Below, piece after piece: positions 3,508 through 27,661 of a DNA stretch of 32,024 nucleotides (the first letter of the stretch is position 1; the number at the start of each line of letters is the position of its first letter). This DNA comes from a virus. The position numbers were made by a program, and so were the translations under genes. Location of the stretch: the IMG/VR virus record IMGVR_UViG_3300010354_000341, positions 1-32,024 of that record. The stretch is one strand, 5' to 3'. A model generated the notes under the pieces. It made no database searches. It saw nothing but the letters and a program-made list of their open reading frames with translations, and was not told the origin of the DNA.

Positions 3508-3524
3508 CTGAAGGCGAATTTCAG
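3508..3524 (-). other. Weak hairpin at the sheath A / sheath B junction
   Basis: CTGAA and TTCAG are complementary arms (3508-3512 and 3520-3524) around a 7-base loop. The structure includes the TGA stop of sheath A. A second overlapping dyad (GCCT-GA-AGGC, 3506-3515) is also present. With a 5-bp stem and no T-run, this is not a convincing terminator. It may slow or process mRNA between the two sheath genes, or be chance. Confidence 0.25.
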
Positions 3525-6500
3525 ACGAATTGAACACCGCTATTTGTAACGATGAAGTCGATCGCGATGTATTCCACCACGCGAGTTGGAACGACGACAA
3601 TTCTACCATTGAGGCGATTGAGGTCGTAATCCTCTTGCGTGTTGTTCGATTCGTTCATTATGACCTGGAATGCTTCGACGCCGGCCTGTGATTGTATGAG
3701 TCCCAATTGGAACGAAGCGTCTGCAACGAACTTGTTGCGAACTGCAGGTGTGTTCTGTTCGAACACAAGGCGTTGAGCTATTCCCATGATGATTCTCTTG
3801 ATCTCGAGCATCAATCTACGAACGTTGACTCTGTCGAGGGCTGACTTGTTGATCTTGAGCGTCTTCTGGCCGTAGATCACGTAGCCGAGTCTCGGGAACG
3901 AGGCGATCGGGTTGATGCGTGATTCATAGAGTCTGTCCTTGTCAGCTCCACCGAGTCTCACTGCGACGTTGCTAACAAAGTCGAGAGCAGCTCGGTTGAA
4001 TCCTGCGGGAGCAAACCATGGGTAAGTGACTCTGTCGTTGAATGCCAAAGCTCCGAGAGCTGCAACAGAGGCAGGAACCTTGACCTTTCTGCGGTTCGTT
4101 GCGTCGTCGATGAAGATGTCGGGGTAGTAGACGGCCGTGTAGTCGTTGTCTATTGCCCTCGAGTCGAAGTTAGCCGCGGTCTGGTTTATGTTCGGCTTGT
4201 TTGTCGAATCATCGAATATTCTGTTTCCGTTGTCGTCATACGAAGGAACGTCCATGACGTACATCGAAAGACCGTAATCTCTAACCTTTTGCATTGTCTT
4301 GTCAGAGATGTAAGTCTCACGAATACCAGGTATTGCGAGTATGTTGTTGTTCGACATGAGTGGGTTCGTCATGATGTCGACGGCGGCAAGATATGATGCG
4401 ACGCCATTGTTATTGACATCTTGACCAGATGGATTCGACGAGAAGCCTGAGATGCTGTTGTTTGCAGATGCACCACCGGAAGACTCAAAGGAGACAGACT
4501 TATCATTGAGACGACGTGCATCTCTGTTGAGGAAGTTTGTTCCGTCGAAGCCGCCATGCATGAAGTTTGTGAACTTAGCATAGGCTGAGAATCTGTTGAA
4601 CTGGGCTGCGGTTCCCGTAGAGAGAAGAGTTGCGAACGTCATTCTCTTTCTACCACCTTCAGACCACGTGTAATCAGTCGTGCTCAGTCTTGCGTTTCTA
4701 ACGTAAGCAGCTTCTCTCATGTGGTTGTTAACAGAGCTTGTGAGCTCTGAGAGCTGTTGGTTGTAGAAGGCTACCTTCGAAAGAGAGAACTTGTTGTTGT
4801 GAAGATTGTCAGAATACGATCCTGTCGTGAGAGCATCAAGCTTTTCGATGCCGCAGAACTTGGTGATCGATTCAAGAAGTCCGTCCTTCTCAGAGACGAT
4901 GTTTGAGTTGAGGACGTTTATCGAATCAGCACTCGAAGCCGTCGAAGATCTCTCGAACTTAACGCCCCAGTAATAAGCCACGTTGGCTTGCTCAGATGGC
5001 CCAGGTGCTCCATCAAATCCTGCGCCTGACGTCTCGCCCCTTGTCACCTTGTATCTGTGTGGCACTGGTGGGAGGAAGGAGCTGCTCATCGATGTATATG
5101 ATCCTAAGACTCCGCCGAGACGAGAATCAGTCGACTTGAGAGCATCAGAAACCTTGAGAGAAGGATTCACCTTGAGGAGGCTTGGTCCTCTAAATCCGAA
5201 AGGAAGCGCATTCGAAGGAATTGTTCCTCTCTCTATCTCAGGGCTCATGACTATTCTAACGTACTTCGAATTGTTCGCATACTTTCCTGTTGCAGCGAGT
5301 CGCTTCTCTGTGGGATTAGAAGCATCGAAATTGTAGTAGACCTTTCTGTCTCCTATGAGCTTGGCAACGTAATTCTCAGAATTCGGATCGAGGGAACAGT
5401 TAGTGAATTGTTCAAGAATATTCAAGGACGTATCGGTGTCGTCCCAAGCGCGAATCTGTACGTTGAACGTGCCGTAGGAATAAGCATCGTTGGTCGAAGC
5501 CTTTATGTTGCTTATGGAGACCTTGTAGAGATTATTTGCATATTCTCCGTCGTCAAGAGCTTCGACCTTAAAGAGGTCGTACTCTGTGTTTCCAAAAGGT
5601 TGCGATATGAAGAAGCTTGTTGACGGTGCCTTAAATCTTGTGTCGTAAGATCCAAAGACTTCCCTGAATGTGAGACTTGTCTTTCCGTCGGAGCTGACAT
5701 TGCTCGATCCAGAGAGGACTGCGACAGGGCTTGCAGATGCTACGGAGGCTACGTTGGGGTCAACGGCAAAGTCAGCATGGAGGTAGTGCTGCTCCTGATA
5801 GAACTTGTCAGGATCTGTATTGAGAATCTTCCCGAAGTAATCCTTGTCAGAAGGATCAAAAGAAGCAGTTAGAACCTTGACGCCAGAAGATCCATCGACG
5901 GTTGAGAATGCCGAACCGAGAGAAGAAGATATGACGATCTTGAACTTAGAAGAAGCGTCTACTTGAGTTGCATCAAGCGTGGCAGGTCCCAGACCGACAG
6001 CAGCAGCAGAACTGGTGAGAACCATTATTCTGGCTGTGTTTGGTGTCATAATGAGGCCTCTCACAAGATTGACACGCGAGCCGTTGACTGTGTCATTGTC
6101 ATTGAAGACCGGCATTCCGAATGCGCCGTTTGACGTTGGAACGTGCTCGGCTACCAAGAACTGAACCGTTCCAAGGGAACGCTTGTCGTCTGATAGAGCA
6201 TCGACGCCACCAGGAAGGGTAAAGCCTGCGTTCTTTACTGTTCCGTAAGAAAGTGTCTCAGAGAGATCTGCGTCGGTTGAATTCGCTCCTGCACCGAGGA
6301 CTCTAGTGTATGTTAAGGCTGCGCGATGCTTCAAGAACTCGTTGACGGCATAGGGTCCATAATGCTTTGGATCAAGGTTGCCAAAAGTCTGTGAGAACTC
6401 ATTGAAGTTGGACACGGTAACAGGAACGAAAGCGGGTCCTTTGTTCGAGGTACCGATCACGGCAGCGGGGACGCCCACGGGTCCGGTGATGGTTGGAGCT

Positions 6501-6556
6501 GAAAGGTCAATTTCACGCTCATAAAAGTTGGGCGACTTAAATGTCTGCTCGGCCAT
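3521..6556 (-). CDS. gp18: Contractile tail sheath protein, gp18-like, first copy (sheath A)
   Basis: This 1011-residue sheath subunit is paralogous to the gene that follows it. The N-terminus carries REIDLSAPTITGPVGVPA and then an IGTSNKGPAFVPV segment. The C-terminal 106 residues begin at ALDRVNVRRL (residue 906), exactly the same length and opening as in the other copy. Other shared blocks include the DRVTYPWFAPAGFNRAAL segment (HPWFAPAGFTRGAL in copy B) and GGFDGTNFLN (GGFDGTNIFD in copy B). The central region has diverged strongly. The ATG at 6556 has an excellent AAGGAGA ribosome site. The leader contains a 9-bp inverted repeat (6573-6604). The gene follows the gp15-like sheath-stabilising protein, a natural functional neighbour. 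Assignment to the sheath family is firm; the division of labour between the copies is unknown. Confidence 0.93.
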   Translation of the reverse strand: MAEQTFKSPNFYEREIDLSAPTITGPVGVPAAVIGTSNKGPAFVPVTVSNFNEFSQTFGNLDPKHYGPYAVNEFLKHRAALTYTRVLGAGANSTDADLSETLSYGTVKNAGFTLPGGVDALSDDKRSLGTVQFLVAEHVPTSNGAFGMPVFNDNDTVNGSRVNLVRGLIMTPNTARIMVLTSSAAAVGLGPATLDATQVDASSKFKIVISSSLGSAFSTVDGSSGVKVLTASFDPSDKDYFGKILNTDPDKFYQEQHYLHADFAVDPNVASVASASPVAVLSGSSNVSSDGKTSLTFREVFGSYDTRFKAPSTSFFISQPFGNTEYDLFKVEALDDGEYANNLYKVSISNIKASTNDAYSYGTFNVQIRAWDDTDTSLNILEQFTNCSLDPNSENYVAKLIGDRKVYYNFDASNPTEKRLAATGKYANNSKYVRIVMSPEIERGTIPSNALPFGFRGPSLLKVNPSLKVSDALKSTDSRLGGVLGSYTSMSSSFLPPVPHRYKVTRGETSGAGFDGAPGPSEQANVAYYWGVKFERSSTASSADSINVLNSNIVSEKDGLLESITKFCGIEKLDALTTGSYSDNLHNNKFSLSKVAFYNQQLSELTSSVNNHMREAAYVRNARLSTTDYTWSEGGRKRMTFATLLSTGTAAQFNRFSAYAKFTNFMHGGFDGTNFLNRDARRLNDKSVSFESSGGASANNSISGFSSNPSGQDVNNNGVASYLAAVDIMTNPLMSNNNILAIPGIRETYISDKTMQKVRDYGLSMYVMDVPSYDDNGNRIFDDSTNKPNINQTAANFDSRAIDNDYTAVYYPDIFIDDATNRRKVKVPASVAALGALAFNDRVTYPWFAPAGFNRAALDFVSNVAVRLGGADKDRLYESRINPIASFPRLGYVIYGQKTLKINKSALDRVNVRRLMLEIKRIIMGIAQRLVFEQNTPAVRNKFVADASFQLGLIQSQAGVEAFQVIMNESNNTQEDYDLNRLNGRIVVVPTRVVEYIAIDFIVTNSGVQFV

Positions 6557-6572
6557 TATCTAATCTCCTTCA

Positions 6573-6604
6573 ATCAGTGATTCTGTGACATAACTATCAC
6601 TGAT
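6573..6604 (-). promoter_or_regulatory. Inverted repeat in the sheath A leader
   Basis: The two 9-base arms (6573-6581, ATCAGTGAT; 6596-6604, ATCACTGAT) are perfectly complementary around a 14-base loop. In the minus-strand mRNA the hairpin ends two bases before the AAGGAGA ribosome site of sheath A. It lies after the stop of the gp15-like gene (6620). There is no following T-run, so a Rho-independent terminator is unlikely. More plausible roles are an mRNA processing or stability element, or tuning of ribosome access for a highly expressed gene. Confidence 0.5.
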
Positions 6605-6619
6605 AAATGCAAGAAGACT

Positions 6620-7846
6620 CTACTTAATCACAACAATTTCTAGATCTTCAAGCGATGCGCCTGTATAAACAGTTTCTCCCTTGGAAGTTGTGTTTCTTAC
6701 TTTGATATATCCCCTAGGAATTCCAAGAGAAGCAGGGTCGCTCTCAAGAACTGCAGGATCGTCTGAGGAGCCTATTGCATAAACTTTTTGTTGTCTCCAG
6801 CCAACGTCTCTTTGATCATCCCTGTTGTTTTGCTGTTCATCAAGAGGAAGAGTTGGATCATCAGAGCCAAGCACGTACTTCGAGTCACCTGATTCCTCAG
6901 AGATTGAGGGATAAGCGTTGGTATCAAAACTTACGAAAGGAGAAGAAACATAGCGCTTGATGGGAATAGGAAGGCCTGGCGCAGAAGATACGAAAAAGTA
7001 GGCAGGAACCGTAACGCTAAATGTGTGCTTGATGTATCGCTCCTGTTGCGACATGTCATCAAAATTTGTCTCTGTATCGAAAGAGCCTTCATCCACTTTT
7101 GCAATGAACCAATAACCCTTTGCGGTGTCAAGACGCCAAGACTGTCCCTGGGGTAAGAAGGAGCTGAATATTTTCTCAAGAACCTGGTTGGCGTGCTGCG
7201 TGTACTGTGTCCAAATCGTTACCTGATATTTCGCTGTATAGAACTGCGGCATCGGAACAACAAGCGTCTCGTATACGTTGTTCCTTAGATTTGGAGCAAG
7301 ATAAGCACCGTCCTTGACGAATTTTTTTCCCGAGAGAGAGCCTGTGCTCCTATCAGAAGAAAGACCTGCAGGGGATGAATTGCTAGCGCTGGTCTGATTC
7401 GGTAGAAAAATCTTGTTAATTAAGTTCTGATAGTTTCTATCTGACTTATCCAGTCTTCTTTTAACAACTATCTCTCCTAGCTGCTGATTTATTCCCCTAC
7501 CGACTACGTCTTCGCCGACGCTTTGATTAAGCTCTGTCCTCATAATAGTGATGAGTGGCAAAATAAGCGTATTGTTTTTGTCTCTCAAGAGATTGCCCTT
7601 CTTCAAGAGAGCCCATTTCTCTCCTGCAGCAAAGATGACAGGAACCTTCTTGAGCGGTGAGGAATCTATTCCCCCGCACTGAGCAGATATCTCTTTGTCA
7701 AATAAGTTGAACATAGACATATCAACGTCTTCTATTCCGCAAGAGGGAATAGAAAATTCAGGAGCTCCTGCCACATTCTCGTAGCCGGTGGGCAGAGGTG
7801 ACTGCCCAAAGTTTCTCTTGGCATTTGATTTTAATCTAGTCGACAT
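6620..7846 (-). CDS. gp15: Tail sheath stabiliser / tail completion protein, gp15-like
   Basis: In T4, gp15 caps the contractile tail, holds the last sheath ring and joins the tail to the neck. This 408-residue protein shows the same order of blocks as I recall for T4 gp15. A VPVIFAAGEKWALL segment (about residue 68) precedes a LPLITIMRTEL strand. A central YQVTIWTQYTQHANQVLEKI helix-containing segment is followed by FLPQG. Further on, YIKHTFSVTVPAYFF matches the gp15 block that ends its beta domain. It is longer than T4 gp15 (about 270 residues), with an inserted Ser/Gly-rich stretch near residues 150-172 and an acidic, Gln/Asn-rich segment near 325-350. It lies between gp14-like and sheath genes, as expected by function. 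The ATG at 7846 overlaps an AGGGAT ribosome site just after the upstream stop. This is recognition by eye; a structure or profile comparison would settle it. Confidence 0.68.
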   Translation of the reverse strand: MSTRLKSNAKRNFGQSPLPTGYENVAGAPEFSIPSCGIEDVDMSMFNLFDKEISAQCGGIDSSPLKKVPVIFAAGEKWALLKKGNLLRDKNNTLILPLITIMRTELNQSVGEDVVGRGINQQLGEIVVKRRLDKSDRNYQNLINKIFLPNQTSASNSSPAGLSSDRSTGSLSGKKFVKDGAYLAPNLRNNVYETLVVPMPQFYTAKYQVTIWTQYTQHANQVLEKIFSSFLPQGQSWRLDTAKGYWFIAKVDEGSFDTETNFDDMSQQERYIKHTFSVTVPAYFFVSSAPGLPIPIKRYVSSPFVSFDTNAYPSISEESGDSKYVLGSDDPTLPLDEQQNNRDDQRDVGWRQQKVYAIGSSDDPAVLESDPASLGIPRGYIKVRNTTSKGETVYTGASLEDLEIVVIK

Positions 7847-8768: not shown

Positions 8769-9941
8769 TTATCCAATCGTAATTGCGCTTCCCTTAGGCA
8801 TAGGAACGTACTTAAGTTGCTTGTTCAGTGACTCAGCTGCTGCTGCATCTGCCTCGAGGAGTTTTTGATGTGTCAACTGTGCAAGAAATTCTTTCATCTG
8901 CGTCTGAAGCTTCTCTTTGTCTTCTCGACCTTGCGTCACCAGCGCCTCTCCGTTTAGCTGAAGGTCAGCATTTGGAATGGGTATGTTTTGAAACTTGGAA
9001 CGAATAAGACCGAGAAGTTCTTTGGCAAGAGCAAGCGTGTACTGACGTATCCACTGACGCCCTGGTTGATTGATGGTTGAAAATGGAAGATTATCTAGCG
9101 GGACGTTAGAAGCACCGGAGATCCCGTAGATTGTCTGGTCCCCGAAAGCTGTCGGGCTTAACGGATTTTGAGGCGGAAGTACTTTACAAAATAGCTTTCC
9201 CACCTGAAGATCTGTAACTGGAATCGGGTATATCCTGAGCTTGCTTCCCATGATCTCATAAGAGTAGTGAGACCTGCGGACCCTGAAAGCGGATTCCAGC
9301 ATTCCTCTCCTGAGGACGTCTTCGAAGATGGGAAGCACATAGAAGATCGTAGAGTTCACATACGACTCGTAGTTAAAGTTTGTTGCGAGAAAGTTCGTTA
9401 TGTTGCTTGCATTGAGCAAGAAGTGTTGTGCAGCGAGCGGCTCACAGTGAAAGAGCTCTACGATTCTAAGCTTGCCTTTCTGCGCTAGACTGTCATACAC
9501 ATTGCTTCCGCTGACAACATCCTTGAGGTCAGCATAAATGTCATAATCTTGCTTACCTGCAACTAGGTCGAAATATCCGAATATTGCGTTCTCAGAACCA
9601 CCTACGAAAGCATTGGTGGCATAAGGCTCGGCCATTCTCAGGAGATACTCGAGGGAGCGCTGTGTATACCTGTTTGTGATGTTGACAGAACCCGTTGCAG
9701 CTCCGAGGACGTTTGTCAACTCAGAGATGATCTTCGTCTCGTGGAGAAGCCTTGAATACTCGCAGACGGACTCTTCAAAACATGCCCAAATTTCTTTCTT
9801 GGTCAACTCCACGGAGAGAACGTCGTCGCCGAGCTTTCTCTTGACGTAAGTGACCATGGCATCAGCCTCTGATTGAAAATCAGAATCCGAATCGAAGAAA
9901 CCGAACGGCGTCGGAGAAATCGTGGTTGAAAAATTAGCCAT
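8769..9941 (-). CDS. gp13: Neck protein, gp13-like
   Basis: This 390-residue protein resembles T4 gp13, the head-completion/neck protein that binds the portal side of the connector. The N-terminal block V-x-Y-V-K-R-K-L-G-D-D-V-L-S-V-E-L-T (about residues 30-47) followed by an amphipathic helix (EIWACFEESVCEYSRL) matches the T4 [20 protein letters not shown] region. The C-terminal block (WIRQYTLALAKELLGLIRSK, then IPNADLQLNGEAL) matches [21 protein letters not shown] and the following helix of gp13. It is about 80 residues longer than T4 gp13. The ATG at 9941 follows a weak AGATAGG ribosome site inside a small hairpin. Among the neck proteins here this is the clearest match. Confidence 0.8.
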   Translation of the reverse strand: MANFSTTISPTPFGFFDSDSDFQSEADAMVTYVKRKLGDDVLSVELTKKEIWACFEESVCEYSRLLHETKIISELTNVLGAATGSVNITNRYTQRSLEYLLRMAEPYATNAFVGGSENAIFGYFDLVAGKQDYDIYADLKDVVSGSNVYDSLAQKGKLRIVELFHCEPLAAQHFLLNASNITNFLATNFNYESYVNSTIFYVLPIFEDVLRRGMLESAFRVRRSHYSYEIMGSKLRIYPIPVTDLQVGKLFCKVLPPQNPLSPTAFGDQTIYGISGASNVPLDNLPFSTINQPGRQWIRQYTLALAKELLGLIRSKFQNIPIPNADLQLNGEALVTQGREDKEKLQTQMKEFLAQLTHQKLLEADAAAAESLNKQLKYVPMPKGSAITIG

Positions 9942-9949
9942 GCATCACA

Positions 9950-9968
9950 CCTATCTTAAACAGATAAG
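9950..9968 (-). promoter_or_regulatory. Hairpin covering the ribosome site of the gp13-like gene; rest of gap 9942-10088
   Basis: In the minus-strand mRNA, CTTATCT and AGATAGG pair (7 bp including one G-U) around a GTTTA loop. The AGG that would serve as the ribosome site is in the 3' arm, so folding would reduce initiation at the ATG at 9941. The remaining bases of the 147-base gap (9969-10088) hold no gene, promoter core or terminator that I can support. Confidence 0.4.
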
Positions 9969-10088
9969 TATGCGATTAAGCGAGTTTTAGTTTCATCCGC
10001 CGTGAGATTTTATGGCTCTTTCCTGGTGTTCGGCTGCTGAATTGTCTCTGCTATCAATTCTCTTTCAGGAGTAATTCTTCTGAGATCT

Positions 10089-14236: not shown

Positions 14237-15232
14237 CGCAACTTGCTTCCAGCTTCCATTGTAGATATAAAATCTGTTGTTGGAAGAATCGTAATACATT
14301 GGCACTCTTCCTGAGATTGTCGACGGAACGGCTGTTGGCGGTCCAGCGGCAGCAGGTATGTAGAAAAATCCGTTTGACATTCCCGTTGAACCCTCAGAAG
14401 TATAGGTGTTTCCGTTCGAATTCACAGAGAACAAAGACGTACCGCTTGAGTTCTGTATAGAAAGATGGTCCCCCGTAGCAGTGGGAGAGCCTGACCTATA
14501 GACGATTCCTGAGTCCGTTGAAGTCGAGGATCCTGTAATATAAAGCCTGGCTGTGTTTGCAACGAATCCAAGACTTCCTCCGGCAAGTATGTTTCCGCTA
14601 GCGTCAATCGTTAAACGAGTTGTGCCATCTCCACCATAGAAGTTGTGTTGCAGAGACGTGTATGTGTTCGTTGCAACTCCAAAGACATTGGGAGCGCCTA
14701 TTTGAATTCCATGAGAAGATCCACCGTAATTGCTTGTAACATGCAAAACTGCTAAGGGATTTTTAGTTCCAATTCCAACTCTTCCACCTAACGTTCCAAG
14801 AGTGCCGGTAACAAAAAAAATGGAAGTTCCTGCAGAATTCTGTACGTCTAAAAGACCTGCTCCGCCCGTAGGAGAAACCACGCCACCTTTTATGGTCATC
14901 GTAGGTATAGACGCTGAAGACGACCCAGAAACAGTCAACAGAGAAGTCGTTGATGTCGTGCCTATCGCTGTTGAGCCTAACAGAAGAGAAGTCGCTTTTA
15001 CCTGCAGCGTATCTTCGTTCGTGTTATCGCCTAAAAAGCTCGAGCCCGACGTGACCAAGCTTCCTGAAACTACCATGGTTCCAGCGAAGACTGCTCTCGC
15101 CGAGCTCGAGCCCGAGACGAAGAACGTGGTATCGGAGCCGGGTATCTGTGGATTTTGAAAGACAATACTTCCAGATATACCGATCACGGAATTGCTTCCG
15201 TATCCAGAAATATTACTTGTTATTATCGGCAC
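14228..15232 (-). CDS. Tail fibre/adhesin protein, short form (334 residues)
   Basis: The N-terminus (about residues 1-60: ITSNISGYGSNSVIGISGSI, then DTTFFVSGSSS and SGSLV) is paralogous to that of the giant fibre encoded just upstream. This suggests both dock at the same site. The middle has Ser/Thr/Gly-rich beta repeats, including two VGIGTKNPLAVLHV-like and LLTVSGSSSAS elements. The C-terminus ends in a PMYYDSSNNRFYIYNGSWKQV motif, typical as I recall of phage fibre tips where a W-rich hairpin closes the trimer. The start is a GTG at 15232 with an AAAGGAGC ribosome site 11 bases upstream. A TATAAT hexamer (minus strand, 15257-15262) lies 25 bases before the GTG. It overlaps the patatin gene tail to tail by 9 bases. 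Confidence 0.85.
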   Translation of the reverse strand: MPIITSNISGYGSNSVIGISGSIVFQNPQIPGSDTTFFVSGSSSARAVFAGTMVVSGSLVTSGSSFLGDNTNEDTLQVKATSLLLGSTAIGTTSTTSLLTVSGSSSASIPTMTIKGGVVSPTGGAGLLDVQNSAGTSIFFVTGTLGTLGGRVGIGTKNPLAVLHVTSNYGGSSHGIQIGAPNVFGVATNTYTSLQHNFYGGDGTTRLTIDASGNILAGGSLGFVANTARLYITGSSTSTDSGIVYRSGSPTATGDHLSIQNSSGTSLFSVNSNGNTYTSEGSTGMSNGFFYIPAAAGPPTAVPSTISGRVPMYYDSSNNRFYIYNGSWKQVALS

Positions 15233-15268
15233 AGATTACCCAGCTCCTTTTACCTGATTATACGTTCT

Positions 15269-18200
15269 TTAGACGCTTGGTTTAGGACCGTTGGAGAAGT
15301 TTCCAATTTCCTCATCAAGCTCTGGTACTGCCTCAAGCATGAACTTGTAGCGCTTACCTGTCTTGTTGAAGCGGATCGTAAGGAAGTCCTCTTCTTCGAT
15401 TAAGGTATAGTCACCGCGTTCGTTCTTGAGATGCAAGTCACCGGTGTAGATGTTTGCCCATCTGTTCGTTGATGAACCTAGCGAGTAGGTTACATCCGCG
15501 GACGGAAGGATGTTCGAATTCACTCGAGATGTGAACGTTACTGTGTCGGAACTTGCGTCGCCGAGCGTGACGTTACCGTTGAATCCGGCTGAACCTGTGA
15601 CACCGAAGACGCCGCCAACCTGAGAGTTGCCTGCGAATGTCGTGGTTACGCTTGCGCCAGCGAAGGTCGTTGTGCCGTTGACTGTGACTGTGTCAGCGGC
15701 TGCATCACCGAGGGTGACGTTTCCGTTGACTGTTGCGTTACCTGCGAATGTCGTGGTTACGCTTGCGCCAGCGAAGGTCGTTGTGCCGTTGACTGTGACT
15801 GTGTCAGCAGATGCGTCACCGAGGGTGACGTTGCCGTTGAATCCAGCCGAGCCGGTGACACCGAGGACGCCACCAACCTGCGAGTTGCCTGCGAAGGTTG
15901 TTGTGACGCTCGATCCTGCGAAGGTCGTCGTACCGTTGACCGTGACAGTGTCAGAGGAAGCATCGCCGAGTGTGGTGTTGCCATTGACCGTTGCATTTCC
16001 AGCGAAGGTCGTTGTAACGGATGCACCAGCGAATGTTGTCGTACCGTTGACTGTGACTGTGTCAGCAGATGCGTCACCGAGGGTGACGTTGCCGTTGAAG
16101 CCAGCAGATCCCGTAACGCCAAGAGCGCCTCCAACCTGTGAGTTACCTGCAAAGGTCGTCGTGACTCCAGAACCCGCGAAGGTTGTGGTGCCGTTGACTG
16201 TCACAGTGTCGGCCGAAGCATCTCCAACCGTGACGTTACCGTTGAGGGTTGCCGCACCTGTAACAGTGAGACCGCCGCCAACTGTGGCATTGTCAGATGT
16301 TGAGAGACGATAGAACGAACCAGTGACGCCTGTGAGGGTGTCGGTCGTCTTGTTGTAGGTGAGACCTGAGTCAGCACCGAACGCGCCACCATCGTTGAAC
16401 TGGATCTGTGTGTCGACACCGGCGACGAGTGCTGCCGCGTTCATCGAGGCTGCAATCGTAACCGATCCGTTAGATCCTGTTGTGATGGTAACGTTGTTAC
16501 CTGCGACGAAGGCAGAGGAACCGTCGGTAAGTTTCGTGAGCGAGCCACTGAGGCCTGCGTTGAACTTGACCGCACCTGTGAAGGTGGTTCCGCTGACTGT
16601 TGCAACGACACCGTCATTGATTGCAAGTGAAACAGATCCCGAAGATCCGCCGCCAGTGAGACCGTTTCCAGCCGTGACGTCGGTTATGTCAGCTTGTGTG
16701 CTGATTGTTACGGAACCATTTGATCCAGTAACGATCGAGATGTTGCTGCCTGCGATGAGGTAAGAAGAACCGTCAGAGAGCTTGGTGAGTGAACCACTGA
16801 GCCCCTGGTTGAAGGTTGCTCTGCCGTTGACCGTGATGATGTCAGCAGCTGCATCACCGAGGGTGACGTTGCCGTTGAAGCCGGCCGATCCAGTGACGCC
16901 AAGGACGCCGCCGACCTGTGAGTTTCCAGCGAAGGTGGTTGTAACACCTGCACCAGCGAAGGTCGTTGTGCCGTTGACTGTGACTGTGTCGGAAGATGCA
17001 TCACCGAGGGTGACGTTGCCGTTGAAGCCGGCCGATCCAGTGACGCCGAGTGTTCCTCCAACCTGTGAGTTACCTGCAAAGGTTGTTGTGACTGAAGAGC
17101 CGGCGAAGGTTGTCGTACCGTTGACCGTGACTGTGTCAGCGGCTGCGTCACCGAGCGTAGCGCTTCCGTTAACAGCAAGGCTGTTGTTGACTGTGGTTGT
17201 TCCTGTCGAAGCGCCGAGAGCTATAGCTGTTGCAGCGCCGCCGAGGTTGAGTGTCGTGACAGTCGAGTTGAGGAGGTTGAACGTCGTTGCCGACGATGTC
17301 ATGTCTCCACCGTTAACTGCTACGTCACCGGCGATTGTCAGGGTGTCAGTTGTCTTGTTGTAGGTGAGACCAGAATCGCCTCCGAAGGCTCCTCCATCGT
17401 TGAACTGGATCTGTGTGTCAGCTCCGCCGACGAGAGATCCTGCGTTCATTGATGCAGAGATTGTGATCGCACCGTTCGAACCAGTCGTGACCGAAACGTT
17501 GTTTCCTGCTATGAAGGCGCTGGTTCCGTCTGTGAGCTTCGTGAGAGAGCCACTGAGACCTGCGTTGAACTTCACAGCTCCGGTAAACGTAGTACCACTG
17601 ACCGTTGCAACAACACCGTCGTTAATTCCGAGAGTAAGATCTCCAGATGTGCCACCGCCCGTGAGACCGGTTCCGGCAGAAACGCTTGTGATGTCTGCTT
17701 GCGTGCTGATTGTTACTGATCCGTTGGATCCTGTAACGATCGAGATGTTGTTACCAGCAACGAGATAGCTGCTTCCATCAGAGAGCTTGGTGAGTGAACC
17801 ACTGAGCCCCTGGTTGAAGGTTGCAGAACCGTTTACTGTGACCGTGTCTGAAGAAGCGTCTCCGAGGATTGTGCTTCCGCTGACTGTGAGGCTGTTCTTG
17901 ACTGTTGTCGTACCAGAGGTAGCGCCAAGAGTCATTGCTGTTGCAGCTCCACCAACATTGAGCGTTGTAACAGTCGAGTTGAGGAGGTTGAACGTCGTTG
18001 CCGACGATGTCATGTCTCCACCGTTAACTGCTACGTCGCCAGCGAACGTTGTTGTAACACCTGCGCCTGCAAAGGTCGTCGTACCGTTGACAGTGACTGT
18101 GTCAGCGGATGCGTCACCGAGAGTGACGTTGCCGTTGAATCCAGCTGAACCAGTGACGCCGAGGACGCCTCCAACTTGGGAGTTGCCTGCGAAGGTGGTT

Positions 18201-21679: not shown

Positions 21680-21687
21680 TATTTATA
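21680..21687 (-). promoter_or_regulatory. T4-type late promoter core TATAAATA
   Basis: The octamer matches the T4 late promoter consensus exactly on the strand that carries the genes. It lies just 13 bases after the stop of the 79-residue gene, in a 125-base gap, upstream of the short fibre (21575) and then the giant fibre. In T4 this element is read by RNA polymerase with the phage sigma factor gp55 and clamp gp45; neither gene is in this window. An AT-rich octamer can arise by chance, but its intergenic position and orientation support it. Confidence 0.55.
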
Positions 21688-21700
21688 AAATACCGAAAAT

Positions 21701-22188: not shown

Positions 22189-22208
22189 GCCATCTCCTGA
22201 ATCAAATC

Positions 22209-25200
22209 TTACCTAAAAATTGTAGCATTAACATTTGAAGCATCAGCAGCGGTAAATCCGCTGGTTAATGTTGATACTCTAAATAGGCTAGACGTTCTGG
22301 GGGTGACATCATCTCTAGATTTTATAATATCGACACCACTTGTACCACCAACAGAAAGAGATACAGTGTAGTTTTCGTCAGGCATGGGAGAAGAAAAATT
22401 CACAATGTAGTCTCCCGTTCCGTTGTCAGTTATACTAGAGACGTTCTGGCTAGCTCTGATGGATATCGTGCCCGTTCCATTAAAGTTTACCCAGGCACGA
22501 GCACCGTAGTACGGTGCCGATCCTGCCGTGGGTGTAATATTCCCCAACGTAGAAGCGCCTGATCCCCCAGCTACTGGGCCGCCTACTGCGATGTATCCAG
22601 ACGTAGGGATGGAAAATGTAATGCTTGCTTGCGTAGAAGAAGTCGCTGTCGCGGACTTCGGTATCATCTTGTTGAAAGAGGTGTCAAAAACCTCGATGTC
22701 ATAGAGGCTTAGCCCGATGTCGTGATTTACGGTGACGGAAGTTGCATCCGAGAACGAAGCAGTTGCATAAGTGATCGCTCCAAGTGATATTGTGACGGAA
22801 CCGTTAGATCCTGTGAGGACAACTATTCCATCACCCGCTCTTAGATAAGAAGATCCGTCTGTAAGATTGGTGAGCGAGCCAGAGAGACCAGCAGAATGCT
22901 TTGTAACACCTGTAAAAGTTGTTCCACTCACAGTAGCCACGACTGAGTCGTTTACTGAGAGCGTGACATTACCAGATGTTCCTCCGCCAAGTAGACCGTT
23001 ACCTGCGTTTACTGAAGTAATGTCCCCCACAGTACCGTCATTGGTGATAACAACAGATCCATTAGAGCCTGTAGCAATACTGATTCCTGGTCCGGCAACG
23101 AGATAGGAGGATCCATCAGTAAGTCTGGTCAGGGAGCCACTGAATCCTGTAGAAGCAACAACATAAGTTCCGGTGACAGCTTGCGTGTTTTTGTTGTACG
23201 AGAGACCTGGGCTGGCGCCAAACTCTCCGCCATCATTAAACTGTATTTGCCTGTCAGATCCTGCGATAACTGCGGCACCATTCATAGAAGAAGAAATGGT
23301 GATGGAACCGTTAGAGCCCGTAGTTATTCCGATGTTGTTTCCTGCAACAAGATAAGACTTGCCATCTGAAAGCTTCGTTAAAGAACCGCTGAATCCAGTT
23401 GTGGCAACAATTGTCTGAGAAGTTACGTTGGACGAGAAAGATCCGAAAGAAGCAGAGAGTATTCCCACATGGTCTATGGATGCAACTGTATTTCCGCTGT
23501 AATTTCGTACATCAACGACTTTTGCTGTAGGCGATGTAACACCAGCTTGCAAAATTGCGACGGGAGTGGATGCTGAGGAAGTACCAACAAGGTGAAATCT
23601 AGCAGACGGAGAAGCGGTTCCTATCCCGACAAGTGAACCTGTCACTGTAAGCGTGTTAGAGCTAAATCCTCCACCTAGAATGACCCTGTTGTCCGAGAAG
23701 ACCTCGAAGATCGGGATTCCGTTGACGCCACATATTGAAATCAGTGATCCGCTTAAGTTGTCTGTGACGGAGAAGAGAGAACCAGAAACTCCAAACACCT
23801 CTAGCGGCATATTGGGTGAATTGGTTCCTATGCCAAGACGACTATTGCTGCTATCCCAAAAAAGTCTAGAATTAGAACCTGTTATCAAGCCACCAGGTCC
23901 TGAAAAAACGATCGAACCAAGAGTAAGACCAGAGCCTGTTAAAGATCCGCTTATGTTAGCTGCAAAAATATTCCGCCAATTATTGTCCGTTGTTCCAATG
24001 TCGTAATTAGAATCAATACCTGGAGTTATGTTTCCATGAAATTGGGACGTGCCGTATGCTTCTAGATCGTTTGAAAAAACTTTCCATCGCTTGACGCTTG
24101 AACCAAGATTATAAGAAGCATCGAGGCCTGGTAAAAGTGATCCTGTGAGAGAGGAATCCCCAAGAACGGTGAACTTGTCGCCTCCTGATACTGTTCCAAT
24201 ACCCACGGAAGATCCGTCATCGTATATGATGCTGTCAGTAAGGGTGTTGGTATCCTGCCACTTAGAGACGTAGTTGGGAGATCCAAATCCATCGACGAGG
24301 CTTCCACCGTTGGTTCCTCCCACCGCATCAATTACGATGGTTCCATTAGAGCCAGTCGTAACGATGACGTTTGATCCGCCTATGATAAAAGGGTCTCCGG
24401 ACGAAAGTCTTGTAAGAGAACCTGTAAGACCAGCGTTAAATTTAACGACTCCTGAAAAAGTAGAACCGCTAAGAGTAGCTACGACAGAATCATTTATGCT
24501 GAGTGTTCTATCGGAACTAAGATCTCCCCCACCGATGAGACCGTTTCCTGCTATGATTGATGTAGTCTTTAAAACCCTGTTGTCGAGGCTACTTGTCAAA
24601 TTGGTGACTTGTGTCTCAGCAATTTGGACAGACGTGAGTGATACGTTTGTTATTCTTCCTTGTAGATCAGTAGTAAAAACAGGGATTTGACTTTGACTTC
24701 CGTAAGTGCCTGCAGATCCCGTATTACTCAATGCTACGGTAATTCGTCCCGTAGATCCTGTAGTAACGTTAATTCCTACGCCTGAAGCGATGTACGACGT
24801 CCCATCGGTAAGTCGCGTGAGAGAGCCGCTAAGTCCTGAATTGAACTTAATCGGACCCGTAAAAGTAGTTCCACTGACTGTAGCAACAACAGAGTCGTTG
24901 ATTCTCAAAGAGACAGAGCCGTCTGTCCCACCACCTAAAAGACCAGTGCCGGGCGATACACCGCTTATTGTGCCGCTGTTTATTGTCGAAAGAAAAATTG
25001 ATCCATTGGAGCCTGTCACAACGGACATGTTTCCGCCGGCTATTATGAAGGAAGTTCCGTCAGAAAGTCTCGTGAGAGAACCGCTTATGTTGGTAGCTAC
25101 AAGAGACCTTCTATCTCTGGCGAATTTGAGGTCCGAGGACGCAGAAAGAAAACCGAGATAGTTGTACTGTATCTCGGTGTCATAGCCTGCAGCAGAAAGT

Positions 25201-25364
25201 TGACTTCTAGGATTGAAAAGACCTAGAGAATCTCTGAAGCTGAACGCTCCGTTTACATACCTGATGCCACCAGCTGCAGTAGGATTATCACCGGGGGACC
25301 TATTTTCGAGGACTATGCCCTCTTCATCGGCCTCACCCGGTCTTCTATCTGGTGTCCTAGCCAT
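22209..25364 (-). CDS. Tail fibre protein with repeat shaft and distinct receptor-binding-type C-terminus (1051 residues)
   Basis: The N-terminus (MARTPDRRPGEADEEGI, then GGIRYVNGAFSF) looks like the docking segment of aquatic phage fibres as I recall them. The shaft has six SGSLTxL modules, two GIGT elements (LGIGTNSPNMPLEVFG, VGIGTASPSARFHLVG), two INDSVVATVSGTTFTG-type blocks and L-G-S-x-x-K-R-W elements. The last 190 residues differ: a DIGLSLYDIEVFDTSFNKMI strand region leads into YGARAWVNFNGTGTISIRAS and then SSITDNGTGDYIVNFSSPM. This C-terminal domain is a familiar fibre tip in phages, likely to contact the host receptor. It has no strong ribosome site (AAGAAATAAGAA before the ATG) and begins 3 bases after the helical 208-residue gene. 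Confidence 0.9.
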   Translation of the reverse strand: MARTPDRRPGEADEEGIVLENRSPGDNPTAAGGIRYVNGAFSFRDSLGLFNPRSQLSAAGYDTEIQYNYLGFLSASSDLKFARDRRSLVATNISGSLTRLSDGTSFIIAGGNMSVVTGSNGSIFLSTINSGTISGVSPGTGLLGGGTDGSVSLRINDSVVATVSGTTFTGPIKFNSGLSGSLTRLTDGTSYIASGVGINVTTGSTGRITVALSNTGSAGTYGSQSQIPVFTTDLQGRITNVSLTSVQIAETQVTNLTSSLDNRVLKTTSIIAGNGLIGGGDLSSDRTLSINDSVVATLSGSTFSGVVKFNAGLTGSLTRLSSGDPFIIGGSNVIVTTGSNGTIVIDAVGGTNGGSLVDGFGSPNYVSKWQDTNTLTDSIIYDDGSSVGIGTVSGGDKFTVLGDSSLTGSLLPGLDASYNLGSSVKRWKVFSNDLEAYGTSQFHGNITPGIDSNYDIGTTDNNWRNIFAANISGSLTGSGLTLGSIVFSGPGGLITGSNSRLFWDSSNSRLGIGTNSPNMPLEVFGVSGSLFSVTDNLSGSLISICGVNGIPIFEVFSDNRVILGGGFSSNTLTVTGSLVGIGTASPSARFHLVGTSSASTPVAILQAGVTSPTAKVVDVRNYSGNTVASIDHVGILSASFGSFSSNVTSQTIVATTGFSGSLTKLSDGKSYLVAGNNIGITTGSNGSITISSSMNGAAVIAGSDRQIQFNDGGEFGASPGLSYNKNTQAVTGTYVVASTGFSGSLTRLTDGSSYLVAGPGISIATGSNGSVVITNDGTVGDITSVNAGNGLLGGGTSGNVTLSVNDSVVATVSGTTFTGVTKHSAGLSGSLTNLTDGSSYLRAGDGIVVLTGSNGSVTISLGAITYATASFSDATSVTVNHDIGLSLYDIEVFDTSFNKMIPKSATATSSTQASITFSIPTSGYIAVGGPVAGGSGASTLGNITPTAGSAPYYGARAWVNFNGTGTISIRASQNVSSITDNGTGDYIVNFSSPMPDENYTVSLSVGGTSGVDIIKSRDDVTPRTSSLFRVSTLTSGFTAADASNVNATIFR

Positions 25365-25367
25365 TTC

Positions 25368-25994
25368 TTATTTCTTCTGTTTCTTTGACTTGGTCTTAGC
25401 TGTTTGATCTACCACTTCTTCTGATTGATTTTCTATCTGTGTTTCTTCAGTTTTTTCTTTTGGGGCTTCTCCGTCTGGTTGAGCTGATGCGTCTTCAGAA
25501 AGTCTTCTTAGTTTTATTGAAGGACCCGGGCGTGTTCCAACAGACCTTCCTGCAGATTCAGCTTCATTTGATTCTTTTGCCTGATTCTCTTCTTCGAGGC
25601 TCCTTTCGAGCGCTCTTCTCAAGAGTTGCTGTCTATTGATCTCTTCGTCTCTATATTTTTTTGCAATGGAAACTGCCTGCTGAAATGCGCTTATCTTTCC
25701 TGCTTGCGCCTGCTTGTTATTTTCAGCAACATTTGCGAGATTGACAATGTTGTTTCTTGCTCTCTCAAGGTAAGACTTAATCATCTTTGATACTTCAAGG
25801 TCCGTCTCTTTTTCGTCGAGATCCCTGTGAACAACCTTGACAAGATTCTCGAGGGAGACTGCAGCGTTTCTCAATGCGCTAACAGCTCCCTCTTCCCTAT
25901 ACAAATCTTTTGTTGCACTTTCAAGGGCATCGTCAAGACGATTCCCAAGTTCATTAACTGCTGTAAGTTTTGCTTCGGACTTTAATAAACTCAT
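25368..25994 (-). CDS. Helical, charged protein preceding the fibre (208 residues)
   Basis: The chosen start is the ATG at 25994 (MSLLKSEAKLTAVNELGNRL) with the strong CGCAGGAG site just upstream. The frame also extends to a TTG at 26027, but that lies in the loop of a hairpin and has no ribosome site. Residues 1-140 are predicted helical and probably coiled-coil (LESATKDLYREEG, LVKVVHRDLDEKETDLEVSK, RQQLLRRALERSLEEENQAK). The last 65 residues are disordered and charged, ending in a Lys-rich tail (KTKSKKQKK). The family is unrecognised. Position just before the 1051-residue fibre and helical composition suggest a fibre-assembly or whisker-like accessory, which is inference. Translation is likely controlled by the hairpin. 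Confidence 0.78.
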   Translation of the reverse strand: MSLLKSEAKLTAVNELGNRLDDALESATKDLYREEGAVSALRNAAVSLENLVKVVHRDLDEKETDLEVSKMIKSYLERARNNIVNLANVAENNKQAQAGKISAFQQAVSIAKKYRDEEINRQQLLRRALERSLEEENQAKESNEAESAGRSVGTRPGPSIKLRRLSEDASAQPDGEAPKEKTEETQIENQSEEVVDQTAKTKSKKQKK

Positions 25995-26046
25995 AACGCT
26001 CCTGCGAGATTTTTCAACATTATACAATTATCTCGCAGGAGCGTTA
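25994..26046 (-). promoter_or_regulatory. 17-bp perfect hairpin hiding a ribosome site, with TATAAT in its loop
   Basis: Arms at 25994-26010 and 26030-26046 are perfectly complementary over 17 bases around a 19-base loop. In minus-strand mRNA the 3' arm contains GCAGGAG, the ribosome site of the ATG at 25994-25992, so the folded form would block translation. The loop contains TATAAT (minus strand, 26024-26019). TTAACG lies 17 bases upstream of it (4 of 6 to TTGACA). Transcription from that -10 would start near 26012 and omit the 5' arm, leaving the ribosome site open. The hairpin has no T-run, so it is not a standard terminator. Confidence 0.7.
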
Positions 26047-26062
26047 ATTAGCCTACTTTGTG

Positions 26063-27607
26063 TTATGCTCTAACATAAGGAACGACACAGATAACATCTC
26101 CAGTCTTGAGCGGGAACTCAAACTTAAGAGAGTTGGCATCGTTACCGGCATAGTAGTCGTTGCCAGATCCCGGGTAGAGAAGCTGGCCGTTAAGATAGAC
26201 GTCGTAGTCCGATCCGAAAGTTCCTGCATCCATGTAAGGAAGTGCTACGTCGACGTTTGAATCTCCCAAGGAGACGTTAACGTCTGCGTTAAGATCACTC
26301 TGAACGATTGAGTACACCTTTGGACGACGCTTGGCCTGATAGATTCCTTGAACAAGTGAAACTTCTCCAAATGCTGTTTCAAACTCGTCCCACTCGGCGG
26401 TGGTGTCAGTGAGCTTTATGCTTGTCGCTGCCCAGGTAGAACCGCCCATGTTACCGTCGCTGAGGAGAAGCTCTCCAGCTCCGAGGAGCTTGAGATCGTC
26501 TGTAGCTGTTGTCTCGATGACTCCGGCTGTCACACCGACGTCAATTCTCGTTCCGGCCGTGTTGAACTTGGCGCCTTCTGAGAAATCGACATCAACTGCG
26601 TTGATGTCGAGATAGTCAACGTCGGACGAAACAGAAACGGTCGTGTCGTTGCTGCTGTGACCTTCGTCGATCTTGAAGACTGTGGCATTGTTGCTGTCTC
26701 TAATTTCCCAATAGAAACCACCGTTGATGTCGAGAGTTGCGTTATTTGAAACCTCAACCGGCAAAGTTCCCTGGTTGTCATAAGCGTTTTGACGTGTCGT
26801 TGCGCTCGTCGAAGGGACGTCGATCTCAGCGCCGCGGAGGAAGTCCTGCTCGTTGAGGTCACCGAGGGCCTTACGAACAGTTGAAACGTAGTTGATTACT
26901 TTGTTCTGTATCGATGAAGCAGGAGCTGCTATGAGGTCGTTACCTGCGACTGGGTCGACCATAACGAAAGATATCTGAGCTCTCTTGTCAACATCGTTGA
27001 GTGTGTGTCCGTTGGCGCCGTCCTCTGTCTGGAGGAGACCGTAGATGATGCTGTTCTCGTGAAGGAGCGGATCTCTGTTGGATCCTGTCACAATCATCAA
27101 GAGGTTCTTGGGGCTAATTGCAGTCGCGCCTTGAACTTCTGCGAGAGAGTGTGTACCAAAGGTTCCTGGGTGCTGAACAGCAACCGATCCTGTGAACTCC
27201 GTTGCGCCGAGAGCAACAACTTTTCCAATTCCGGCTGGGTTGGGAGCCTGCGTTGCTGTCGAAAGAATGACCCAGTTCTGTCCATCAGGAACTGTGACGT
27301 CAGAGACGCTGACGTAGCTTGTGAGAACTCTCTTTCTCTCGAGGCTGTGAAGGTCGTTGTTGAGAGAGTCGATACCGCGCTGTCTTCCGTTTTCGAAAGA
27401 TGTCGGTGTGTAGATGTTGTCATACCAGTTATCAGAGGGCATTGTGTCGCCGTCTCTGTTGAGCATGTTCTGTATCTGAGAGCGAAGATTATTTAAGTCT
27501 TCCTCGAGCGATGACGCCGACTCCCACAAAACGTCTGGTTCGAGCTGATCGTCATAGACGTCAGAGTTTTTGATCTGAATTCCTTGCCTAATAAAAGTAC
27601 GTGCCAT
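26063..27607 (-). CDS. Phage structural/tail fibre-associated protein (514 residues)
   Basis: The protein opens MARTFIRQGIQIKNSDVYDD and has an early coiled-coil-like segment (SLEEDLNNLRSQIQNML) followed by a NWYDNIYTP element. I recall proteins with this same opening as common structural components in aquatic T4-like phages, but not with an established role. The middle is beta-rich and includes LLMIVTGSNRDP, and the C-terminal part ends in a compact strand region (YDVYLNGQLLYPGSGNDYYA, then GDVICVVPYVRA). That ending resembles the L-Y-V-N-G-x-L-Q fold of the neighbouring upstream gene. The ATG at 27607 has an excellent TAGGAGA site. A two-hairpin leader precedes it. Confidence 0.82.
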   Translation of the reverse strand: MARTFIRQGIQIKNSDVYDDQLEPDVLWESASSLEEDLNNLRSQIQNMLNRDGDTMPSDNWYDNIYTPTSFENGRQRGIDSLNNDLHSLERKRVLTSYVSVSDVTVPDGQNWVILSTATQAPNPAGIGKVVALGATEFTGSVAVQHPGTFGTHSLAEVQGATAISPKNLLMIVTGSNRDPLLHENSIIYGLLQTEDGANGHTLNDVDKRAQISFVMVDPVAGNDLIAAPASSIQNKVINYVSTVRKALGDLNEQDFLRGAEIDVPSTSATTRQNAYDNQGTLPVEVSNNATLDINGGFYWEIRDSNNATVFKIDEGHSSNDTTVSVSSDVDYLDINAVDVDFSEGAKFNTAGTRIDVGVTAGVIETTATDDLKLLGAGELLLSDGNMGGSTWAATSIKLTDTTAEWDEFETAFGEVSLVQGIYQAKRRPKVYSIVQSDLNADVNVSLGDSNVDVALPYMDAGTFGSDYDVYLNGQLLYPGSGNDYYAGNDANSLKFEFPLKTGDVICVVPYVRA

Positions 27608-27620
27608 GGCTTTCTCCTAA

Positions 27621-27661
27621 AATCGCAGTCGTCAGCGATTCGAGCTAATTATTATTTAGCT
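27621..27661 (-). promoter_or_regulatory. Two adjacent small hairpins in the leader of the 514-residue gene
   Basis: AATCGC/GCGATT (27621-27626 and 27635-27640, 8-base loop) and AGCTAA/TTAGCT (27643-27648 and 27656-27661, 7-base loop) are both perfect 6-bp stems. The first ends just before the TTAGGAGA ribosome site, so it is in the 5' leader. The second, AT-rich one overlaps a CTAAATA element. Leader structure or transcript-end structure are both possible; neither has a long T-run. Confidence 0.42.
27653..27659 (-). promoter_or_regulatory. Candidate late promoter core CTAAATA upstream of the 514-residue gene
   Basis: The minus strand reads GCTAAATAATAATTAGC. CTAAATA differs from the T4 late core at its first bases and is identical to the heptamer ahead of the leftward neck operon (11955-11961). 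It lies 46 bases before the ATG at 27607. A similar AATAATTAGC string precedes the giant fibre gene (about 20691-20701). This is weak evidence on its own. Confidence 0.33.

Follow-up and report, generated by a model that had tools for sequence, protein, structure and literature searches.

In phage T4, translation of gene e is experimentally known to be blocked by a leader hairpin; a promoter within the hairpin-encoding sequence gives rise to RNA without the 5′ strand, and longer transcripts hide the Shine-Dalgarno sequence (SD) and AUG (PMC3014915). In T4 soc, 49, I-TevI and segB and in Aeh1 mobE, the ribosome-binding site is sequestered on upstream-initiated mRNA, and a promoter lies in or near the hairpin (PMC3014915, PMC2988022). 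The T4 genes controlled in this way are late genes that are also present on early or middle mRNAs (PMC3014915, PMC2988022).

The window analysed here, a 32-kb IMG/VR record (32,024 nucleotides), carries a comparable element on its minus strand between the genes for a 514-aa and a 208-aa protein. As in T4 e, the SD and AUG are predicted to be hidden on the long transcript, and a candidate promoter lies inside the hairpin sequence. The locus differs in that T4 e has gp55-type late promoters (TATAAATA) whereas the window element has a sigma70-like TATAAT, in that T4 e is carried on early transcripts whereas the window gene lies inside a structural-gene operon, and in that the window stem is perfect and stronger than that of T4 e. 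It also differs from soc, 49, I-TevI, segB and mobE, which are late genes on early or middle transcripts and include several homing endonucleases. By analogy, the locus would be the known T4 device, here equipped with a promoter of a different class from that of the neighbouring genes. We propose that the element acts in cis as an RNA lock and has a bypass promoter in its loop, and give this reading, as the whole explanation, a probability of about two in three. The features of the locus are:

25368-25994, minus strand: controlled gene, 208 aa, AUG at 25994
26063-27607, minus strand: upstream gene, 514 aa
27646-27652, minus strand: ATAATTA (ATANTTA type) upstream of the 514-aa gene, a likely origin of read-through mRNA
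22209-25364, minus strand: downstream tail-fibre-like gene, 1051 aa, with a PHROG tail fiber match
between genes 26063-27607 and 25368-25994, minus strand: whole element, TTAACGCTCCTGCGAGATAATTGTATAATGTTGAAAAATCTCGCAGGAGCGTTATG
26030-26046, minus strand: 5′ arm TAACGCTCCTGCGAGAT, which pairs with the SD arm and overlaps the −35-like hexamer
26011-26029, minus strand: loop, 19 nt, AATTGTATAATGTTGAAAA
25994-26010, minus strand: 3′ arm ATCTCGCAGGAGCGTTA, which holds AGGAG (Shine-Dalgarno sequence, 26003-25999) together with the first base of the AUG
26019-26024, minus strand: −10-like TATAAT in the loop, putative function
26042-26047, minus strand: −35-like TTAACG, 17 nt before TATAAT, all but its first base within the 5′ arm
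26011-26014, minus strand: predicted transcript start, in the loop beside the 3′ arm, placed by sigma70 spacing

A search for homologues of the 208-aa protein in IMG/VR, GTDB genomes and phage records returned the contig of one relative alone, IMGVR_UViG_3300042987_003836 (G1), whose proteins near the element are 80-91% identical to those of the window. The sequence of a second relative (G2) ends inside the upstream gene.

The hairpin and its ribosome site

The two arms (26046-26030 and 26010-25994) are 17 nt each, 100% complementary and separated by 19 nt. The 3′ arm contains CGCAGGAG on the minus strand, with AGGAG 4 nt before the AUG, which begins at 25994 and whose A is the closing base of the stem; an earlier, sequence-only reading had reported a perfect 17-bp stem with the ribosome site in its 3′ arm, and its coordinates and letters are correct. 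No other perfect inverted repeat in the window is as long (runner-up, 12 bp), and the chance expectation for such a repeat is ~8e-5 per 32 kb. The predicted hairpin has a free energy of −28.8 kcal/mol, and its mean stem pairing probability is 0.98 when 60-300 nt of the preceding RNA are included; the RNA fold z is −7.4, and 0 of 200 shuffles are equally stable. Rfam gives 0 matches at gathering score within the window, and comparing the element region with the searched phage records likewise gave none.

On predicted RNA folds, we calculated the opening cost, i.e., the free energy to unpair the ribosome-site region. With 100 nt of upstream RNA, unpairing the SD costs 17.9 kcal/mol for the 208-aa gene, compared with 0-9.4 kcal/mol for the other window genes with a recognisable SD (18 minus-strand window genes computed). 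We also calculated the cost from SD to AUG over ~130 gene starts in the window phage and its relatives. By this measure, exposure costs 26.9 (window) and 27.8 kcal/mol (G1) on read-through RNA, and 5.7 and 6.5 kcal/mol, respectively, on RNA begun just past the −10 element. The next-highest start, which carries the ATANTTA motif described below, costs 16.1 kcal/mol, and the 94 starts without the motif have a mean of 6.7 and a maximum of 14.1 kcal/mol. By the same measure, T4 e changes from 15.6 to 4.5/0.7 kcal/mol, and T4 soc, a weaker fold, from 8.3 to 6.5 kcal/mol. On read-through transcripts the ribosome site is therefore predicted to be part of a stable helix, and the proposal that read-through RNA sequesters the site and loop-started RNA frees it agrees with the folding (~27 versus ~6 kcal/mol). 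In addition, the stop codon of the upstream gene lies 16 nt ahead of the stem in both the window and G1, a distance at which a ribosome that terminates there is not expected to open the stem.

Hairpins also occur at two other gene starts of the window. One at 9942-9973 (minus strand), before the head-tail adaptor gene 8769-9941, is weaker and has ATACTTA in its 5′ arm and the SD and AUG in or at its 3′ arm, and its cost changes from 16.1 to 8.3 kcal/mol (from 10.6 to 5.3 kcal/mol in G1). The other, at 6573-6604 (minus strand), before the sheath-like gene 3521-6556, is a 9-bp hairpin (ATCAGTGAT/ATCACTGAT) just ahead of the SD, with ATAGTTA at the arm/loop edge and two A-to-G changes in G1, both G-U compatible.

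The candidate loop promoter and the ATANTTA motif

The TATAAT that the sequence-only reading had placed in the loop lies at 26024-26019, and sigma70 spacing puts the predicted start where that reading had put it, at ~26012 inside the loop. In a promoter scan, TTAACG-17-TATAAT, with its first hexamer from 26047 and a 4/6 match at −35, scores 10/12; because 18 sites were found in the scan against 15.9 expected in shuffles, this match alone is not significant. A shuffled loop of the same AT-rich composition would contain TATAAT with an estimated probability of ~7%, and in upstream regions without ATANTTA the hexamer occurs 13 times against 5.9 ± 2.5, a mild enrichment after composition control. 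The predicted promoter is placed so that its RNA would omit the 5′ arm. A promoter inside the loop is a plausible and, overall, likely reading; if real, it is sigma70-like. At several small genes (window 13527, plus strand; G1 35622, plus strand, and 34403, minus strand) a TATAAT lies just 8 nt before the ATG, which suggests near-leaderless mRNAs.

The genes directly upstream on the same strand are structural and bear ATANTTA, a strand-specific promoter-like motif. We identified this motif by k-mer enrichment and dinucleotide shuffles (an EM motif search was swamped by T-rich tracts) in 124 regions in total from the window, the two relatives and 13 more distant tail loci. Over the 124 regions it occurs 38 times against 9.0 expected (reversed, 5 versus 9.0); the three close records have 15 copies on their late strand against 1.8 in shuffles (reversed, 1 versus 1.6). 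Most copies lie 17-38 nt ahead of start codons, including those of sheath, adaptor and fibre genes, where a late −10 element would be expected. Its sites in the window are:

9965-9971, 6591-6597 and 27646-27652, minus strand: ATANTTA motif sites; others lie upstream of genes in G1, G2 and L018-L034

We label the motif late-type from the kind of gene downstream; these phages may use it as their late promoter, in place of the T4 type TATAAATA. A gp55-like late sigma factor had no match in eight related records, a result that is uninformative. The sole TATAAATA of the window, at 21682-21689 (minus strand), is conserved in G1 and lies ~110 nt before a 279-aa gene.

The sequence-only reading had likened the element to T4 e and soc, with early read-through mRNA kept silent and a promoter in the hairpin timing expression. 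In such a scheme the loop promoter would be late, with ATAATTG (26031-26025) or TATAATG as its −10 element. The architecture matches that of T4 e, and a start driven by ATAATTG would likewise fall within the loop, giving RNA that lacks the 5′ arm. However, ATANTTA is absent from the hairpin element; the nearest match there, ATAATTG, is one letter off, and the ATANTTG class, unlike exact ATANTTA, is not enriched (3 observed versus 3.3 expected; late strand, 0 versus 1.2). Furthermore, the T4 late consensus TATAAATA is missing from the loop and from the element as a whole, and early read-through mRNA is not evident, the same-strand upstream genes being structural. Since those genes carry ATANTTA, the read-through mRNA is probably late. 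We thus retain the likeness to the design of T4 e, but neither the late switch nor the timing by early read-through mRNA, and regard the T4 scheme in its strict form as unlikely.

A sigma70 form of the lock with a bypass promoter may exist elsewhere. We scanned IMG/VR with the dyad pattern GCTCCTG-TATAAT-CAGGAGC, a search aimed at this layout rather than an unbiased sample, and obtained 13 loci including G1, 3 of which (G1, L038 and L042) have a start codon and an ORF of at least 60 aa in SD spacing; the same 13 loci in reverse orientation give one marginal case. Like the window element, L038 (IMGVR_UViG_3300001605_000263, 5284-5329) has TATAAT in the loop, GCTCCTG/CAGGAGC arms and the SD in the 3′ arm, its ORF starting 4 nt on. 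It differs in belonging to an unrelated phage, in having a perfect TTGACA-17-TATAAT and in preceding a gene that matches the ribosomal L7/L12 C-terminal domain. The opening cost changes from 19.8 to 1.1 kcal/mol in L038 and from 17.5 to 5.1 kcal/mol in L042. The numbers are small and come from a targeted search, but L038 is a hint that a sigma70 version of the design is also present elsewhere.

Other hairpins were seen in relatives. L009 (12539-12915, minus strand) and L012 (6828-7198, minus strand) both encode a tmRNA, with tags ANDNGYAALAHAA and ANDNGYAALALAA, followed in both by an endonuclease-like gene. In L012, a 15-bp perfect hairpin at 6756-6810 (minus strand), absent in G1, lies between the two; its loop holds the start codon, ATACTTA sits where the 5′ arm meets the loop, and a T-run follows. 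L014 10344-10386 (G2 50145-50187) is a 17-bp perfect intergenic hairpin with a 9-nt loop and no clear T-run.

Conservation of arms and loop

The sequence-only reading had suggested looking for the same dyad in related genomes, and both arms and the TATAAT loop are kept in the diverged G1. In this comparison of n=2 sequences (window and G1), 1 of 52 aligned positions of the element is changed and one A is deleted in the loop, compared with 55% divergence at fourfold sites of the four flanking genes. The sole substitution is a C to U in the 5′ arm (1 of 17 positions), which replaces a C-G with a U-G pair and leaves all 17 pairs intact in G1. The 3′ arm is identical, the −35-like TTAACG is also kept, and none of the 18 aligned loop positions, TATAAT included, is substituted (p ~6e-7 at the fourfold rate). 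The conserved block has sharp edges that coincide with the dyad on both sides. The one-base loop deletion disposes of two other candidates, a leader peptide from the loop ATG, whose short ORF changes in frame and length, and an in-frame TTG start at 26027, which is broken.

Other gene starts of the window/G1 pair are also unusually conserved, some at 100% over at least 60 nt, and the near-identical stretches usually extend from a promoter-like motif as far as the start codon. Part of the conservation of the element is therefore a general constraint on initiation regions, but such a constraint does not account for the conserved 5′ arm, and a hairpin by itself would leave the conserved loop unexplained. 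Three stretches of the window (22193-22301, 27573-27654 and 15215-15289, minus strand), all at gene boundaries, are 100% identical to G1, where DNA elsewhere is ~79% identical; either constraint or recent recombination may be responsible.

The remaining alternatives are all improbable. RNase III or another double-strand RNase could cut the read-through hairpin and free the ribosome site, making a promoter unnecessary, in keeping with a long perfect stem whose arms are both conserved; however, 17 bp is short for regular cleavage and the substitution-free loop containing TATAAT is left unexplained, and we consider this improbable. Slightly less probable still is a protein-responsive operator, in which translation or transcription is tuned by a protein of phage or host that recognises the hairpin, the loop or the DNA repeat: conserved loop and arms would suit it, but the C-to-T change in one arm breaks the DNA symmetry and retains RNA pairing, which favours RNA over a DNA operator. 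The element is intergenic, as a terminator or pausing hairpin with an incidental SD overlap would be, but the loop is 19 nt, no T-run follows the stem (TGAGTTTATTAAAG comes next) and no terminator-like site is called there by a scanner that accepts only loops of 3-8, which makes this reading very improbable; equally so is a functionless palindrome from template switching, since, although palindromes do arise (as another long hairpin at the endonuclease-like gene of a relative indicates), this one persists with 1/52 changes despite 55% neutral divergence.

A proposed lock with a bypass promoter and its likely role

In the proposed RNA lock, read-through RNA from the upstream structural genes would carry both arms, fold and hide the SD and start codon, as computed, whereas RNA begun at the loop TATAAT, if this is an active promoter, would omit the 5′ arm and leave the ribosome site open. 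The model in which read-through mRNA would be silent and loop-started mRNA translated is well supported in silico, the lock itself by conservation as well as by folding. The 208-aa gene would thus be uncoupled from the operon and expressed from its own start alone. With read-through mRNA coming from probably late genes, the hairpin more likely uncouples the gene than delays it.

The candidate loop promoter looks sigma70-like, unlike the ATANTTA of its neighbours, and its timing probably differs from theirs; judged by sequence, it could be active early, throughout or late. We tentatively raise an inverted T4 switch, possible but rather less than even in our estimate, in which a sigma70-like, host-type loop promoter is early or constitutive and the hairpin silences the gene on abundant late mRNA.

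The product of the gene has no match in PHROG, Pfam or phage records. AlphaFold2, run with two sequences, predicts a helical hairpin, with long helices at 2-61 and 66-148 and a disordered C-terminus (mean pLDDT 73), and a fold search with this low-information fold returned nothing at E<=0.001, only coiled-coil noise. The earlier label of a fibre accessory gene, which derives solely from the position before the fibre gene, is therefore unproven.

With this locus, the promoter-in-hairpin logic known from T4 is carried over to an uncultivated phage and to a promoter class unlike that of the neighbouring genes. The element is compact, 53 bp in which one arm doubles as −35 region and anti-ribosome-site, and lends itself to reporter assays. 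If the proposed lock is true, hairpins can insulate single genes within a structural operon, beyond delaying late genes.
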